Virus record (IMG/VR): IMGVR_UViG_3300028392_000205
Location: 1-32,022 of that record
Strand: one strand, 5' to 3'
Source of the DNA: a virus
DNA length: 32,022 nt
Shown here: positions 5,888 through 28,178 of the stretch, in pieces
Layout: the number at the start of each line of letters is the position of its first letter
Position numbering within the stretch: position 1 is the first letter of the stretch
The notes under the pieces: generated by a model
Told to the model about the DNA's origin: nothing
Databases searched by the model: none
The model's input: the letters and a program-made list of their open reading frames with translations, nothing else
Program-made: the position numbers and the translations under genes

Positions 5888-5920
5888 TAAAAGAGGGATT
5901 AATTTCCCTCTTTTACTTTT
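5887..5920. terminator. Intrinsic terminator between convergent genes
   Basis: A perfect 12-bp stem (5887-5898 with 5905-5916) and a 6-base loop TTAATT are followed by TTTT on the + strand. The stem begins at the last base of the giant gene's stop codon. The stop codon of the opposing 60-residue gene lies in the loop. The A/T-rich stem ends may let it work in both directions. Confidence 0.85.
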
Positions 5921-6081
5921 GTAATTAACAAGCTTATATTAAAAAAGATAAACCCTAATAATATTTCATGGAAGTCTTTATCTATTCCATCTTGTTCATG
6001 CATAACTCCTTTAGTGTAAGATATACCTAATACACATCTAGAAGGACTTAAAAATTCAAATTCAAAATTGCCTTTTATCAT
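5899..6081 (-). CDS. Small conserved phage protein with hydrophobic C-terminal half
   Basis: This encodes 60 residues from an ATG that follows the stop codon of the upstream cREC-fusion gene by 5 bases, so it is probably the last gene of that transcript. The N-terminal part is polar (SPSRCVLGISYTKG, MHEQDG). The C-terminal part, LLGFIFFNISLLI, could be one membrane-spanning segment. Its end lies inside the convergent terminator loop. I do not recognise a function. Position and spacing support a real gene more than the composition does. Confidence 0.55.
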   Translation of the reverse strand: MIKGNFEFEFLSPSRCVLGISYTKGVMHEQDGIDKDFHEILLGFIFFNISLLITKVKEGN

Positions 6082-6086
6082 AATTG

Positions 6087-6614
6087 TTATTTTTTAATTT
6101 CAAATGGATGTTTCATTAAGAAACAATCCTGTTCCTGTCCCATGTGTTTTTTAAACCCATTGAGAAAGTCTTGAATGTTCTTAGCACCCACAGGATTATG
6201 TGAGTGTACACAACATTGTTTTAAATCTAATTTCATTTTCTGGCAATACTCTACTAAGAAGTTAGCACAGTCTACACCAGTCTTTTCTTTATAAGACTCA
6301 TAGTTAGGATGTTGATACCCCTGTTGTGCCACTTGGTTAAAATAGTCATTACTATGCTCATCTGCTAAGTCATGATCAAAAGATACTAAGTCTGGTACAC
6401 CATTCTCAATTATCCATTTTTCAAACTCATCGTAGTTTCTAACTACCTTCCATGGGTGATACCCACGTATAGTTTCTATAGGTGTTCTTACATCGTCTAA
6501 ATAGAGTGCTGTTTTTAATTTATTCTTTTCCATATAAGGACAATTTTTACAACCATTATGACAGCAGAAACCTCTATTGAGTAAGAAGTCTCTGCTTAAT
6601 GGTGTTGGTTTCAT
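6087..6614 (-). CDS. DUF5522-like Cys-rich motif fused to a cyclic-phosphate-processing receiver (cREC-like) domain
   Basis: This 175-residue protein has two parts. Residues 7-27 carry RGFCCHNGCKNCPY, a CC-x3-C-x2-C pattern (Cys17, 18, 22, 25) like the DUF5522 motif seen in short Bacteroidota proteins, probably metal-binding. Residues 36-155 look like the cREC family: LYLDDVRTP (Asp40, Asp41), SFDHDLADEH (Asp80, His81, Asp82), GVDCANFL, and VHSHNPVGAKNI (His137, His139, Asn140). That family is predicted to process cyclic phosphates, often in RNA repair or signalling; activity here is inferred. Its ATG overlaps the TGA of the dNMP kinase gene by 4 bases (ATGA), implying coupled translation. 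A C-terminal tail (about 156-175) has no recognised domain. No RNA ligase or polynucleotide kinase is visible nearby. Confidence 0.7.
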   Translation of the reverse strand: MKPTPLSRDFLLNRGFCCHNGCKNCPYMEKNKLKTALYLDDVRTPIETIRGYHPWKVVRNYDEFEKWIIENGVPDLVSFDHDLADEHSNDYFNQVAQQGYQHPNYESYKEKTGVDCANFLVEYCQKMKLDLKQCCVHSHNPVGAKNIQDFLNGFKKHMGQEQDCFLMKHPFEIKK

Positions 6615-7318
6615 AATAATTTGGCATGTTTTAAAATATCTTGAACAGCTTCTTTTAGTTCAAATATACCGGATACATTAGCTATCTTATAGTCAAAATT
6701 CCAACCATCAAGTCCTATTTCAGAAGGATGATCATTAATAGGTTTAACACCTGGTTTATCTATACGAATGATTATTCCTCCTTTATCTTTGATAGCTTTA
6801 GCTTCATTAGGAAATCTAGTGTCAGTGATAACCCAATTAGGCATTATTTCAGCTTCTGTTAATGAATCAAAGTCCAATGGTTGATAATCAGCCATAAGAG
6901 CATTCACCCATACATTATCATGTAATCCCATTCTAAGAGCATCTGTACCAAGCTTCTGTAGAAAGTCTCTTACAGACATTAAACTATTAAATTGAACATC
7001 TTCAAATACAGGTATATTGTTTAATGGGTTATGTTCAACTGTTCCCCATTCAGGACCTAATAAAGTTTTTTTAAATTCTTGGTCTTCAAACTTTTCTATA
7101 TCTATACCTGTAAGATGAGAAGCTATATCTTTAAGCTTACCTGCAAACTTTCTTATTTCCCAACTAGACTGGTCTTCTAACCACCATTCATGATCCTTAT
7201 AATCTTTACATACATCTTCTATGGTTAATTCACCTTTGTTAGTACAATTTAAATACTGTATAATCATTCCTACAGTGTCTTTACCAGATCCAGAGTATCC
7301 TGAAATTCCGATTATCAT
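6611..7318 (-). CDS. Deoxynucleoside monophosphate kinase-like protein
   Basis: At 235 residues this resembles phage dNMP kinases, which phosphorylate dNMPs to feed DNA synthesis. The N-terminus has a P-loop, GYSGSGKDT (residues 7-15). Further along are the family-like segments RDFLQKLGTDALR, VWVNAL, WVITDTRFPNEAKAI and a GGIIIRIDKPG strand, followed by HPSEIGLDG. The Arg in DTRFPNE is typical of this family. The start ATG overlaps the stop of a 29-codon ORF, and its own stop overlaps the next gene, so it sits in a coupled string. General P-loop kinase is certain; dNMP kinase as the substrate class is likely. Confidence 0.82.
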   Translation of the reverse strand: MIIGISGYSGSGKDTVGMIIQYLNCTNKGELTIEDVCKDYKDHEWWLEDQSSWEIRKFAGKLKDIASHLTGIDIEKFEDQEFKKTLLGPEWGTVEHNPLNNIPVFEDVQFNSLMSVRDFLQKLGTDALRMGLHDNVWVNALMADYQPLDFDSLTEAEIMPNWVITDTRFPNEAKAIKDKGGIIIRIDKPGVKPINDHPSEIGLDGWNFDYKIANVSGIFELKEAVQDILKHAKLL

Positions 7319-17465: not shown

Positions 17466-18040
17466 ATTTTATTTTTTTGATTTTCTAATTCATCAAGTAT
17501 TTGCTGACAATGGTCTGCAAGTTTTGATGTCACTTCTTTTTGGGAATTCATTTTTTTTATAAAGTAACTACTTGTTGCCATATATTGATAATTTTTCATC
17601 TTGAACAATTTATTATAATCATCAGCAGCATCTAATACTAAATCCCAATCATACTCAGGATAATTTTTAAAGAACCATACAAACTTTTCTTTTAATTCAC
17701 TTACAGATTGTCTGGCTAATTCTCCAGAAGGTAATCTTTTAGCTGGAAAAATTTCTCTATACTCATTAATACGTTCATTCATGTCAGATCCTAATACTTC
17801 TGAAGCTACTTTCTTTTTTGTTTTAACTATAAATGTTTCATATTCATTAAGTATCATAGCTCCTTTATTAGTAAGATTACCTTTATCATCTATTAGTCCT
17901 TTAGCTTGGCATATAATTTTTTCAGGTTCTTGATTAATAATGCTAGTTGGTTTAATGTTAGATCTACAGCAATCTAAAAAGTAAATTTGGTTAGGACTAA
18001 CATTCCATTTGATCAATGGTGCCCAGTGTTGATGGCTCAT
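17462..18040 (-). CDS. Conserved phage protein, possible replication accessory factor
   Basis: This protein has 192 residues. It begins MSHQHWAPLIKWNVSPNQIYFLDCC, then NLTNKGAMILNEYETF, and carries INEYREIFPAKRLPSGELARQS, FFKNYPEYDWDLVLDAADDY and NYQYMATSSYFIKKM. The order (FP-x-x-x-PSG, W-x-x-x-L-x-A, Y-M-x-T-S-x-F-I) is one I associate with proteins preceding DnaB genes in Bacteroidota phages. A helicase-loader role is a guess from position. The start overlaps the DnaA-like gene by 44 bases, but the N-terminal YFLDCC block seems conserved, so I keep this start. Confidence 0.6.
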   Translation of the reverse strand: MSHQHWAPLIKWNVSPNQIYFLDCCRSNIKPTSIINQEPEKIICQAKGLIDDKGNLTNKGAMILNEYETFIVKTKKKVASEVLGSDMNERINEYREIFPAKRLPSGELARQSVSELKEKFVWFFKNYPEYDWDLVLDAADDYNKLFKMKNYQYMATSSYFIKKMNSQKEVTSKLADHCQQILDELENQKNKI

Positions 18041-18467
18041 AGTCTTTTTTTATTTGATTAATGATTAAATAGTATTTATCTTTAAATAAAGGGTCTGTTT
18101 CATATAAATTTCTAAATGTATTTATACCATGAATTACTGTAGTATGATCTCTACCTCCCATATAAATACCTAATTGCTTAAGATTATATCTCATAGATCT
18201 AGCTATAAAGAAAAATATACATCTAAGTTCTACAAGAGGTCTATTTCTATCTTTAGATTGTAATTTTGTTTTTTTATTATAAAAAGTAGGTAGATGTGGT
18301 TCAAAATACTTTTCTAGTTCTGGAAGTGTTAACGTAATAATTCCATCATCTGTAATTCTATGATTTGTAACCACTGTAGGATAGTAACCTATCTTATCGT
18401 AAAATCTATTAATAAATTCTGTAATAAGATCATGTTCTGCCTTTTTTTTATACTCTGCTGGATTCAT
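17997..18467 (-). CDS. DnaA domain IV-like DNA-binding protein
   Basis: This 156-residue protein contains a DnaA C-terminal (domain IV) signature: VELRCIFFFIARSM (79-92), NLKQLGIYMGGRDHTTV (95-111) and IHGINTFRNL. In bacterial DnaA this domain binds DnaA boxes at the origin. The AAA+ part is absent; the first 75 residues are helical with YPTVVTNHRITDDG. It is the first gene of the leftward replication block and lies beside the divergent intergenic region, which fits a role in origin recognition or regulation. It overlaps the next gene by 44 bases. Confidence 0.85.
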   Translation of the reverse strand: MNPAEYKKKAEHDLITEFINRFYDKIGYYPTVVTNHRITDDGIITLTLPELEKYFEPHLPTFYNKKTKLQSKDRNRPLVELRCIFFFIARSMRYNLKQLGIYMGGRDHTTVIHGINTFRNLYETDPLFKDKYYLIINQIKKDYEPSTLGTIDQMEC

Positions 18468-24906: not shown

Positions 24907-24943
24907 GAAAAAGGGCCCCTATGTTAATAGAGGCCCTATTTTT
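24907..24943. terminator. Intrinsic terminator between convergent blocks
   Basis: The stem AGGGCC...GGCCCT (24912-24917 with 24932-24937) extends by CTAT/ATAG around a GTTA loop with one mismatch. On the + strand it is followed by TTTTT after one A; on the minus strand by TTTTT as well. This suits both the + tail block and the minus VWA gene, whose stop is at 24942-24944. Confidence 0.85.
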
Positions 24944-26456
24944 ATTTCACTATCTCTCCGAACTCATCCACTTTGTGTATGGCTTCACCATTAAATACTA
25001 CAGCCTGACCTTTAGTAGCATATTCTTTGATGATATTCTCATTGAAGTAATTGAATCTTGCTCCGTCTACACCAATGAAGAATGCTTTATCAGAATAAAT
25101 AGAACAATTATCTTCAGCATCTGTAATTACTAATGCATTAACACCATTCTTTTCTATACTTTGTATAGCATTATCAATAGTAGTACCACCACCACAATCT
25201 AACATAGATATAGATATGATGTCATTCTTACGATGTTTCACTCTATTATCAAATGTATAAATTTCATTAAGCATGTCCATACCTTTTAGTTTGGCAGCAA
25301 ATGCTTTACAGAAATCTATTTTACTTATATTATCTCCATTACTATTTCTTACACCACAATTAGAAGACATAGATCCTGATACATCTATATAGAGATCAAT
25401 CTTACCTACTTTTTTGGTGTTTTTTACTTGCAGATCTTCAGCAAATATCTTTCTGAGTTTTGGATGTAATAGTTCATAATCCTCTAGCCCAGCTATGTTA
25501 TCACTATTAAACAAGTCTTCATACTCAGTGGTTTGATTAGCACTAAAATAACTAACAGATTTATCTAGTAATTTCTTAATCTTTTCTTTCAAACTTCCCA
25601 TAGAGAGATTGATATTCTCAAGTCTGGCTGCTATTTGTCTCATGAAGTCAGGACTAAGTTTACCTGCCATTCCTCCATCACCGTCTGGTTTATTAGCATT
25701 CTCAAACATTTGATCTTGAACATCTCCGTCCATTGCATCATCCATTTGTTTACACAAATCTTGGGCTTTTTGCATAGCATCATCTAGCATACTTTTACCT
25801 TGCTTACTATCCATCATATCATTCATAGCTTGATCTACACCATCATTATCAAAATCAGATTGACCATTCAATCCGTTTTTAATATCTTCAGATGTATTTG
25901 GATCTACAAAATCCATAATAGTCATACGGGTGATAAAATAAGATAGAATGTTACGTGCATATATAGCAGACTTTAGATTGCTATGTTCTGACATAATCTT
26001 ACCTACAGGATTATTAGCCCTTTCTAAGAATTTAAACTTAGTGTGGTTCTTCTCGTCCCTGTCTTCAAAATCAAGCTTATCTATAGGATTATAATACATC
26101 TTGAAGATGTCTTTAGCCATATGTTTAGGAAACTTTCTATAGTTCTCCTGAAACTTTTGATAGAATGCTTGTTGATCAGGTTGTTGTTTTGGATCAATCT
26201 TTTTAAAGTCAGTGGTTTTAGCAAACTTGTTATAGTTTTCACTTACTGCTTTAGTATCTTTCATATGAGTGTCCATAATATTCTCAAGCCTCCATTCATC
26301 TATATAATGCATATAAGGTTTGATAAGATCTGGTTTCTTATAAAAGTTAATTTTTCCAAATAAACCTTCATCATCTTTATAATAGGATTTGATTTCTCCT
26401 TTTTTTACTTTCTCAAGAATGGTATATACATTCTTATAACTTTTTTGACTTGCCAT
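24942..26456 (-). CDS. VWA-domain protein, partner of MoxR ATPase
   Basis: This 504-residue protein ends with a von Willebrand A domain with an intact metal-binding MIDAS site: DVSGS (Asp358, Ser360, Ser362), GGGTT (Thr425/426) and ITDAED (Asp446). The N-terminal 300 residues are helical, with acidic Met-rich middle parts (DDAMQKAQDLCKQMDDAMDG). In bacteria and archaea, MoxR AAA+ ATPases commonly pair with VWA proteins to fold, insert metal into, or remodel targets. Here the MoxR gene is directly upstream, separated by a hairpin. The target is not evident. No signal peptide or transmembrane segment is visible, so it probably acts in the cytoplasm. Confidence 0.85.
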   Translation of the reverse strand: MASQKSYKNVYTILEKVKKGEIKSYYKDDEGLFGKINFYKKPDLIKPYMHYIDEWRLENIMDTHMKDTKAVSENYNKFAKTTDFKKIDPKQQPDQQAFYQKFQENYRKFPKHMAKDIFKMYYNPIDKLDFEDRDEKNHTKFKFLERANNPVGKIMSEHSNLKSAIYARNILSYFITRMTIMDFVDPNTSEDIKNGLNGQSDFDNDGVDQAMNDMMDSKQGKSMLDDAMQKAQDLCKQMDDAMDGDVQDQMFENANKPDGDGGMAGKLSPDFMRQIAARLENINLSMGSLKEKIKKLLDKSVSYFSANQTTEYEDLFNSDNIAGLEDYELLHPKLRKIFAEDLQVKNTKKVGKIDLYIDVSGSMSSNCGVRNSNGDNISKIDFCKAFAAKLKGMDMLNEIYTFDNRVKHRKNDIISISMLDCGGGTTIDNAIQSIEKNGVNALVITDAEDNCSIYSDKAFFIGVDGARFNYFNENIIKEYATKGQAVVFNGEAIHKVDEFGEIVK

Positions 26457-26506: not shown

Positions 26507-27844
26507 TTAAAATGGATTTTCTACAGAATCAACCATTTCATCAAATTCTTCTGATGTTTGATAGTCAGCACGAGCTGGATGGTTCTGAAGAATAAACTGC
26601 ATAGTAGATTCTATTTCTTCCACTTGACCTGTATCCATTACACCTCTAGATGCATATGTATTAATCAAGCTTTCTATTTCAGCTACAGCTAACTCAAGAG
26701 CCTCATTATTACTATGAGAGTGTAGCATTTCCACCTTACTCATCACAGCTTTAATCTCTGGACTCATTAGCTTGTTCTGTAATTCTGAACCTGCTGTTTG
26801 ATTAATCATAATCTGAGCTGTCTTTACAAGAGCTTTATCTACACTAATATCCCATACATAACTTACAGCTTTAGTAAGCTTAGGTACAAAAGTTAGAGTA
26901 CGATCTGAGCTGTGTTGATAACCCACTTCCAAATACTTATCTAATTTGTTAGAAGGTATTTCTACAGTGTCTAATTCAGCTTGATTAGGAATACCAATCT
27001 TAAAGCTTTCTTTATAGTTACGTGCACCCTTAGCATAATACTTAGACATATCACCTGCAGAAACTCTGTTTACAGTCATCTTCAACATAAATCTGTCCCA
27101 GAACGGACTGTCTTTCTCATCTTTAGGTATTTCATTACATGTAGCAATGAACAATTTCCATTTACATGGGATTTTATTCTTACCATTAAACAAGAACTTC
27201 TCGTTCATTACACCTAACATAGCATTTCTAATAGCTGAGCTAGCTTTATCCACCTCGTTGATGATTACAATGTCAGCTTCTGCTACAGGAGCATTAACTT
27301 CATATATATTCTCAGTGAATAACTTACCTAAATCAGGCATACCCTTAATTTCTGATGCTTTAGTACCCTCGTCAGTCTCTAAGATGTACATTTTGTTTTG
27401 AAAATCTTCAGCTGTCATCTTACCATCCTTGTTCAACCATGCCTTAGCATATTCTATAATAGTTTTTGTCTTTGCTACACCTGGCTCACCTATTAATAAT
27501 AATGGTAATCCTGTAGCTTCTGCTAATGCTAGCATCTTAAATACTTCTTCCTTGTTAATTAAGGAAGTTTCAATTTGTCTCACTTCTTGAGTAGTCTTCT
27601 TAGTGATAGACTTTGTTGCCTTTGCCATGTTAAGGGGTTTTTTAATTGTTGTTATTGGTTGTTGTATACTTGGTTGCTGTGCAGGTGTTGTTTTTCCAGC
27701 ACTAGGGTCTGGTACCCATCTTTGAATACCTGCATTATTAGCTGTTACTTTCCACCATCTGCCATCATTACCTACAGCTTGTGTACCTACAGCAAATGAT
27801 GTAGCACTATGAGATGGACTAGGTCTATTTAATTGTCTTGCCAT
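26507..27844 (-). CDS. MoxR-type AAA+ ATPase with an N-terminal GNDG..W..V..RW module
   Basis: I use the ATG at 27844 (445 residues). An in-frame TTG 30 bases upstream overlaps the previous gene. Walker A is GEPGVAKT (119-126). Walker B is IVIINEVDK, with Asn where Asp is common. Sensor 1 is IATCNE, and an arginine finger sits in FWDRF. The order fits the MoxR/RavA clade. The first 80 residues carry an extra module, GNDGRWWKV through GIQRWVPD (about 25-46), then a Gln/Pro-rich linker. Similar short W...RW modules occur in other phage and virus proteins, perhaps for protein contact. It precedes the VWA partner gene. Its role in a phage is unknown. Confidence 0.85.
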   Translation of the reverse strand: MARQLNRPSPSHSATSFAVGTQAVGNDGRWWKVTANNAGIQRWVPDPSAGKTTPAQQPSIQQPITTIKKPLNMAKATKSITKKTTQEVRQIETSLINKEEVFKMLALAEATGLPLLLIGEPGVAKTKTIIEYAKAWLNKDGKMTAEDFQNKMYILETDEGTKASEIKGMPDLGKLFTENIYEVNAPVAEADIVIINEVDKASSAIRNAMLGVMNEKFLFNGKNKIPCKWKLFIATCNEIPKDEKDSPFWDRFMLKMTVNRVSAGDMSKYYAKGARNYKESFKIGIPNQAELDTVEIPSNKLDKYLEVGYQHSSDRTLTFVPKLTKAVSYVWDISVDKALVKTAQIMINQTAGSELQNKLMSPEIKAVMSKVEMLHSHSNNEALELAVAEIESLINTYASRGVMDTGQVEEIESTMQFILQNHPARADYQTSEEFDEMVDSVENPF

Positions 27845-27860
27845 GTCTAAGTGTGGTTGA

Positions 27861-28178
27861 TTAAAGGTTGGCAAAGATGTCGGCTGCTTCAGAAACAGTT
27901 TCTATTGTTTCTACTTGTTTAGTTTTATTCATAACATCAATTACTTGATCAGAATGTGATTCTTTTTTAGTGTCGTCTATAATGTTAAAGATTGTAAAAG
28001 TAGTCTCTGCATTTTTAAGAGCAGGATGTTTTCTAATAGCAGATATCTGCTGAGGATTAGCCCCATACTTTTCTTCTATAGATCCATAGCTAAGATCATC
28101 TTTCTTAAGCCATGTGTAACCTTCATTAAGGTCATTTACTAATTGAGAGACTGTCAAGTCTACTTTGTTGATTGCCAT
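27861..28178 (-). CDS. Small HTH-like protein before MoxR
   Basis: The start I prefer is the ATG at 28178 (MAINKVDLTVSQLVNDLNEG), one base after the glycosylase stop; a longer form from 28253 would overlap that gene by 74 bases. Of 105 residues, DLSYGSIEEKYGANPQQISAIRKHPAL resembles a helix-turn-helix: S-x-x-E-x-Y-G-x-x...Q-I-S-x-I-R. The C-terminal third is acidic and helical. It ends 16 bases before the MoxR start. DNA binding is possible but not certain. Confidence 0.55.
   Translation of the reverse strand: MAINKVDLTVSQLVNDLNEGYTWLKKDDLSYGSIEEKYGANPQQISAIRKHPALKNAETTFTIFNIIDDTKKESHSDQVIDVMNKTKQVETIETVSEAADIFANL

Follow-up and report, generated by a model that had tools for sequence, protein, structure and literature searches.

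Genomic setting of the fusion gene

The window, i.e., the whole stretch of DNA that was analysed, was a 32,022-base viral fragment from IMG/VR (IMGVR_UViG_3300028392_000205, positions 1 to 32,022). Apart from the cREC region it carried genes for phage replication and phage structural proteins. The features at the locus were as follows.

6087-6614 (-): fusion ORF of 175 aa, in which a DUF5522 motif and a cREC domain were joined in frame
6534..6614 (-): truncated DUF5522 (Cys4) module, N-terminal, 27 residues, MKPTPLSRDFLLNRGFCCHNGCKNCPY (PF17653, 28.6 bits)
6090..6533 (-): cREC domain, 148 residues counted from the internal Met, residue 28 (PF20274, E 4.5e-20; PHROG 1479, E 1.5e-24)
6611..7318 (-): deoxynucleotide monophosphate (dNMP) kinase (PF21448, E 6.3e-15; PHROG 139, E 1.6e-45)
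5899..6081 (-): short conserved ORF (FEFLSPxRC-LGISY..) just downstream of cREC, from the ORF lists

The start codon of the fusion ORF (ATG, 6614-6612) shared four bases (ATGA) with the stop of the upstream dNMP kinase gene, and Met 28 within the ORF matched the native start of unfused cREC relatives. The same fusion was present in a record from another sample (L001) with a protein identity of 78%, indicating that the window fusion was neither a chance event nor an assembly accident. A short ORF like that at 5899..6081, for which no Pfam or PHROG family was matched, was also found downstream of cREC in five relatives (G271, L003, L005, L006 and L013). Genes near the fusions in relatives encoded ThyX, a dCTP-deaminase-like protein, MazG and a phosphoesterase. 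Together with the dNMP kinase of the window, these neighbours suggest a setting of DNA-precursor rather than RNA-repair genes.

Elsewhere in the window, adjacent genes at 24942-26456 and 26507-27874 (-) encoded a von Willebrand-like DxSGS protein and a MoxR-type AAA ATPase (PHROG 19600, E 5.6e-19), a pair that resembled phage CobT/CobS-like pairs, and a small protein encoded at 17997-18467 (-) had a DnaA domain IV-like signature (GGRDHTTVIHG).

The cREC part

Residues 36-152 matched cREC_REC (PF20274) with an E-value of 4.5e-20 and 72.5 bits, cf. a cut-off of 27. The LDD, DHD and HS residues were invariant across 26 aligned cREC sequences, including proteins from Chryseobacterium and Comamonas, and the receiver-type aspartates D40, D41, D80 and D82 were likewise invariant in 26/26 relatives. 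In the AlphaFold model, pLDDT exceeded 90 throughout the cREC part outside an insert at residues 88-110, and Foldseek matched this part to receiver domains in the PDB (7qz2, 3h5i and 8thp) with probabilities of 0.90-0.99, albeit with weak E-values of about 0.01-0.03; the PDB matches at 0.97-0.99 were receiver folds. Judged by these residues and the predicted fold, the cREC part of the fusion ORF is an ordinary cREC, with both intact.

The published definition of the cREC family is a prediction, namely of a phosphoesterase that is aspartate-based and independent of metal, and fusions to Nudix as well as gene contexts of RNA repair and of ADP-ribose systems have been described for it (PMC7824862, PMC9503650); hydrolysis of cyclic phosphates has been shown for no member, according to PMC9503650. 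The window protein resembled the family (PF20274/PHROG 1479) in its profile match far above the cut-off, the retained LDD/DHD/HS residues, the receiver-like modelled fold and its location in a phage gene adjoining a nucleotide kinase. It differed in carrying an N-terminal DUF5522 remnant, whereas the fusion described in PMC9503650 is to Nudix. In the neighbourhood of the Escherichia phage V5 type, the genes run sirtuin/tRNA ligase/cREC/nucleotide kinase/MazG (PMC9503650). The window shared with it cREC and the nucleotide kinase, and sister phages shared MazG or a calcineurin-like phosphoesterase; in contrast, a search of 12 relatives' records with RNA_ligase (PF09414) found no RNA ligase, and thymidylate synthase and dCTP deaminase-like genes were present instead. 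In a PF09511 search the control itself gave no signal. The probable function of cREC is the processing of phosphoesters in the context of nucleotide metabolism.

The DUF5522 module

DUF5522 (PF17653) was matched at residues 10-31 with an E-value of 1.5e-6 and 28.6 bits (cut-off 25). The window module spanned just positions 27-48 of the 48-position profile and is a truncated form of the family. Its Cys motif, earlier described as CC-x3-C-x2-C, read FCCHNGCKNCPY and fitted the pattern CC-x3-C-x2-C-P-[YF]. All four Cys were invariant in 26 aligned DUF5522 rows. The motif was also conserved in fused forms, the sole exception seen being the module of G271, in which one Cys was replaced by Phe. The RGxCCxxxCxxCPY core thus placed the module within DUF5522, above the cut-off, and sister phages carried full-length forms. 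Unlike the family, the window module lacked profile positions 1-26, which make up the N-terminal half with the beta-hairpin, had Asn (CKNCP) in place of a near-invariant His (CRHCP), and was fused rather than standalone. From its Cys4 core, the module may have a metal or redox function.

AlphaFold did not place the module confidently (pLDDT 53-61), a fold search with DUF5522 gave no match to any solved structure, and no solved homologues were found by sequence. In the named-phage collection the short module had a single weak match (E 0.2). Four of 26 DUF5522 proteins weakly matched Oxidored-like (PF09791), which has a similar Cys cluster; these matches were below the cut-off (best E 0.034) and serve as a lead only. 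No mention of DUF5522 was found in the literature searched. Nor was anything helpful found there on C1orf53, a putative human DUF5522 protein.

Exchange of partners in related phages

Viral contigs related to the window were sorted into those with a short-module fusion, those with a full-length DUF5522 that was fused to or overlapped the next gene, and those in which DUF5522 was separate. The short module (25-29 residues) was fused in frame to cREC in the window and L001, to MazG in G271/L186 and L189, to ThyX in G011/L188 (Thy1, E 8.9e-35), to a small helical ORF (orfA) in L190, L191 and L192, and to another small ORF, orfB, unrelated to orfA, in L194; G272 also had the module on a non-cREC partner. 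Full-length DUF5522 was fused to cREC in L005 and L013-L015. It overlapped the next gene in the +1 frame by 41-65 nt in L006, L025, L026 and L100, and in L193 the short module overlapped a calcineurin-like phosphoesterase gene out of frame, within the same range of lengths. DUF5522 was separate in L044. At most one DUF5522 match per record was obtained in the PF17653 search.

In all short-module fusions the junction coincided with the partner's ATG, 0 or 3 bases (0-1 codon) past the CPY codons, and the partner's Met was retained in all fused forms. G271 had the same ATGA junction with the kinase as the window, with the module joined to MazG and cREC following as a free gene. cREC was also unfused in G011 and G272, so that phages with the module on MazG, ThyX or orfA had a free cREC, and cREC was missing from records of 88 and 125 kb that carried the module. 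On the cREC tree, the fused vs. free state required at least 4 changes and a single fused clade was rejected (AU test), although the trees were poorly resolved, with 10 open forks, i.e., most forks. The cREC-fused forms are polyphyletic. Since partners interchange and cREC is free in sister phages, the fusion is no proof of joint function. The module may nevertheless have some preference for cREC, its commonest partner (window, L001, L005 and L013-L015), and the partners may not be random, since both ThyX and MazG are nucleotide enzymes. The dN/dS of the module, over only 25-29 codons, was about 0.08-0.25 both in pairs that shared a partner and in pairs that did not; such low values whatever the partner suggest that the module is retained in its own right.

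A spore photoproduct lyase-like gene was located directly upstream of the module in L189 (2138-2986; PF20903, E 8.7e-14) and L194 (2132-2989).

DUF5522 and class II ribonucleotide reductase in other phages

In phages outside the cREC group, full-length DUF5522 was encoded directly after class II ribonucleotide reductase at 81 loci, which represented 18 clusters at 90% identity and 9 at 80%. The reductase was identified by Pfam (PF02867), and PF21995 was above the cut-off in 1 of the 4 tested. Examples of the pair occurred among L029-L122, e.g., L045 (2097-3953 and 3962-4168). In cREC-type phages, neither PF02867 nor an NrdJ protein query detected a ribonucleotide reductase in any of 14 records. 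From gene order, a role in nucleotide metabolism is plausible for the phage forms of DUF5522, and in general it is unproven. This conserved position behind the reductase in phages is a first functional lead for DUF5522.

Thioredoxin-like genes were present near the reductase-DUF5522 pair in some contigs. In L054, L063, L071, L094 and L113 an extra ORF, in some cases GIY-YIG- or HNH-like by eye, separated the two genes, giving the appearance of an insertion between genes that were once neighbours.

Interpretation of the fusion

The preliminary description had recognised a fusion of DUF5522-like and cREC-like parts directly coupled to a nucleotide kinase, and this was borne out, as both parts were above their Pfam cut-offs and in frame at 6087-6614 (-) and the ORF overlapped the dNMP kinase gene. 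Its further proposal, that the two parts together form an RNA end-processing or nucleotide-signal enzyme, fared differently. In such a bifunctional enzyme the metal bound by the Cys4 motif would serve the cREC active site, in RNA end repair or in nucleotide-signal degradation, as might be expected from the published contexts that connect cREC with ADP-ribose systems and the repair of RNA (PMC7824862, PMC9503650) and from the nucleotide kinase, MazG and calcineurin-like phosphoesterase in common with the V5-type neighbourhood (PMC9503650). However, relatives carried the module on MazG, ThyX and two other proteins while cREC stood free or, in the 88 and 125 kb records, was absent; the two parts separated readily, so that the outcome named beforehand as refuting the preliminary description, absence of the two parts together in related phages, largely held. 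The polyphyly of the fusions, the DNA-precursor neighbours, the lack of PF09414 matches in the 12 records, the proposed metal independence of cREC and the low-confidence placement of the module all argue against joint action, which we regard as very unlikely. The architecture is new and the families are known; the step from fusion to joint function is unsupported.

A fusion that came about neutrally through the close packing of genes and has no function of its own, the parts being made mainly as separate proteins or the tag being tolerated, would account for junctions exactly at start codons, the out-of-frame overlaps in sister phages and the retained internal Met. The conservation of the Cys motif in fused forms, with the G271 replacement as the sole exception, indicates that the module is not decaying, and a functionless fusion is accordingly unlikely. 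It is also rather improbable that the module acts as a docking tag that recruits ThyX, MazG or cREC, whichever it is fused to, to a phage dNTP-synthesis complex similar to the enzyme complex of T4, with free DUF5522 beside ribonucleotide reductase filling this role as a subunit of its own. ThyX and MazG are dNTP enzymes, genes for dNMP kinase, a dCTP-deaminase-like protein and ThyX adjoin the fusions, and the reductase is followed by full-length DUF5522 at the 81 loci; yet orfA and orfB have no known nucleotide link, the 14 cREC-group records held no ribonucleotide reductase, and DUF5522-bearing cells mostly lack the class II enzyme. More broadly, one might speculate that deoxynucleotide metabolism in phages and bacteria has an unrecognised small Cys4 component in DUF5522, which would be both a partner of class II reductase, as a separate protein, and a portable 27-residue tag on ThyX, MazG and cREC that brings these to a common complex or to a metal or redox supply; we consider this unlikely.

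We favour the reading, with a probability of roughly 0.6, that the ORF encodes a phage cREC protein whose start codon is abutted in frame by a promiscuous, stop-less DUF5522 mini-gene. Within the group, DUF5522 genes would have no stop of their own before the ATG of the next gene, and frame would decide the outcome: where the frames match, the mini-gene would be read into the next gene as a fusion, and where they do not, it would overlap the start of that gene in another frame. The gene that follows in the window is cREC, and a matching frame would have given the fusion. Because a stop-less mini-gene lies against the next start codon, exact junctions need no special mechanism. The module would act by itself and would probably be a small Cys4 element, metal-binding or redox, with a link to the deoxynucleotide metabolism of the phage. 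The cREC part would likewise work independently, as an aspartate-based phosphoesterase of receiver-like type whose substrate is a cyclic or nucleotide phosphate. Internal initiation at Met 28, a residue kept by all fused relatives, may in addition yield free cREC. With one module on five partners, this clearly illustrates how promiscuous an N-terminal mini-gene can be. The function of domains is often guessed from their fusions, and here sister phages expose a misleading one.

DUF5522 and cREC in cells

That the two parts are usually separate, as first supposed, was true for cells and for most phages looked at. None of 10 cREC loci in genome contigs of cells or prophages was fused, and no cREC was found beside DUF5522 at about 30 Bacteroidota DUF5522 loci inspected. 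DUF5522 was present in 42/148 Bacteroidota genomes and 1/100 Pseudomonadota-side genomes, with varied neighbours. A tight link between DUF5522 and class II ribonucleotide reductase in cells was considered and rejected, as the two did not track each other (42 vs. 5 genomes among the 148 Bacteroidota).

At four Bacteroidota-phylum loci (L140, L142, L144 and L152) DUF5522 was part of a longer open frame, of about 350-380 residues, and was followed by a signal-peptide-like stretch; these may be further read-through fusions or frame joins. At the cellular locus L165, DUF5522 was fused behind a Cys-rich CWC-like stretch with CobU- and B12-binding-protein-like neighbours, and at L166 it had a MeaB-like neighbour, which by eye hints at a possible B12 link. 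MW495066.1 (Microcystis phage MaAM05) carried purL-purF-DUF5522 and gatA, and near position 239,000 it looked bacterial despite its filing as a phage.
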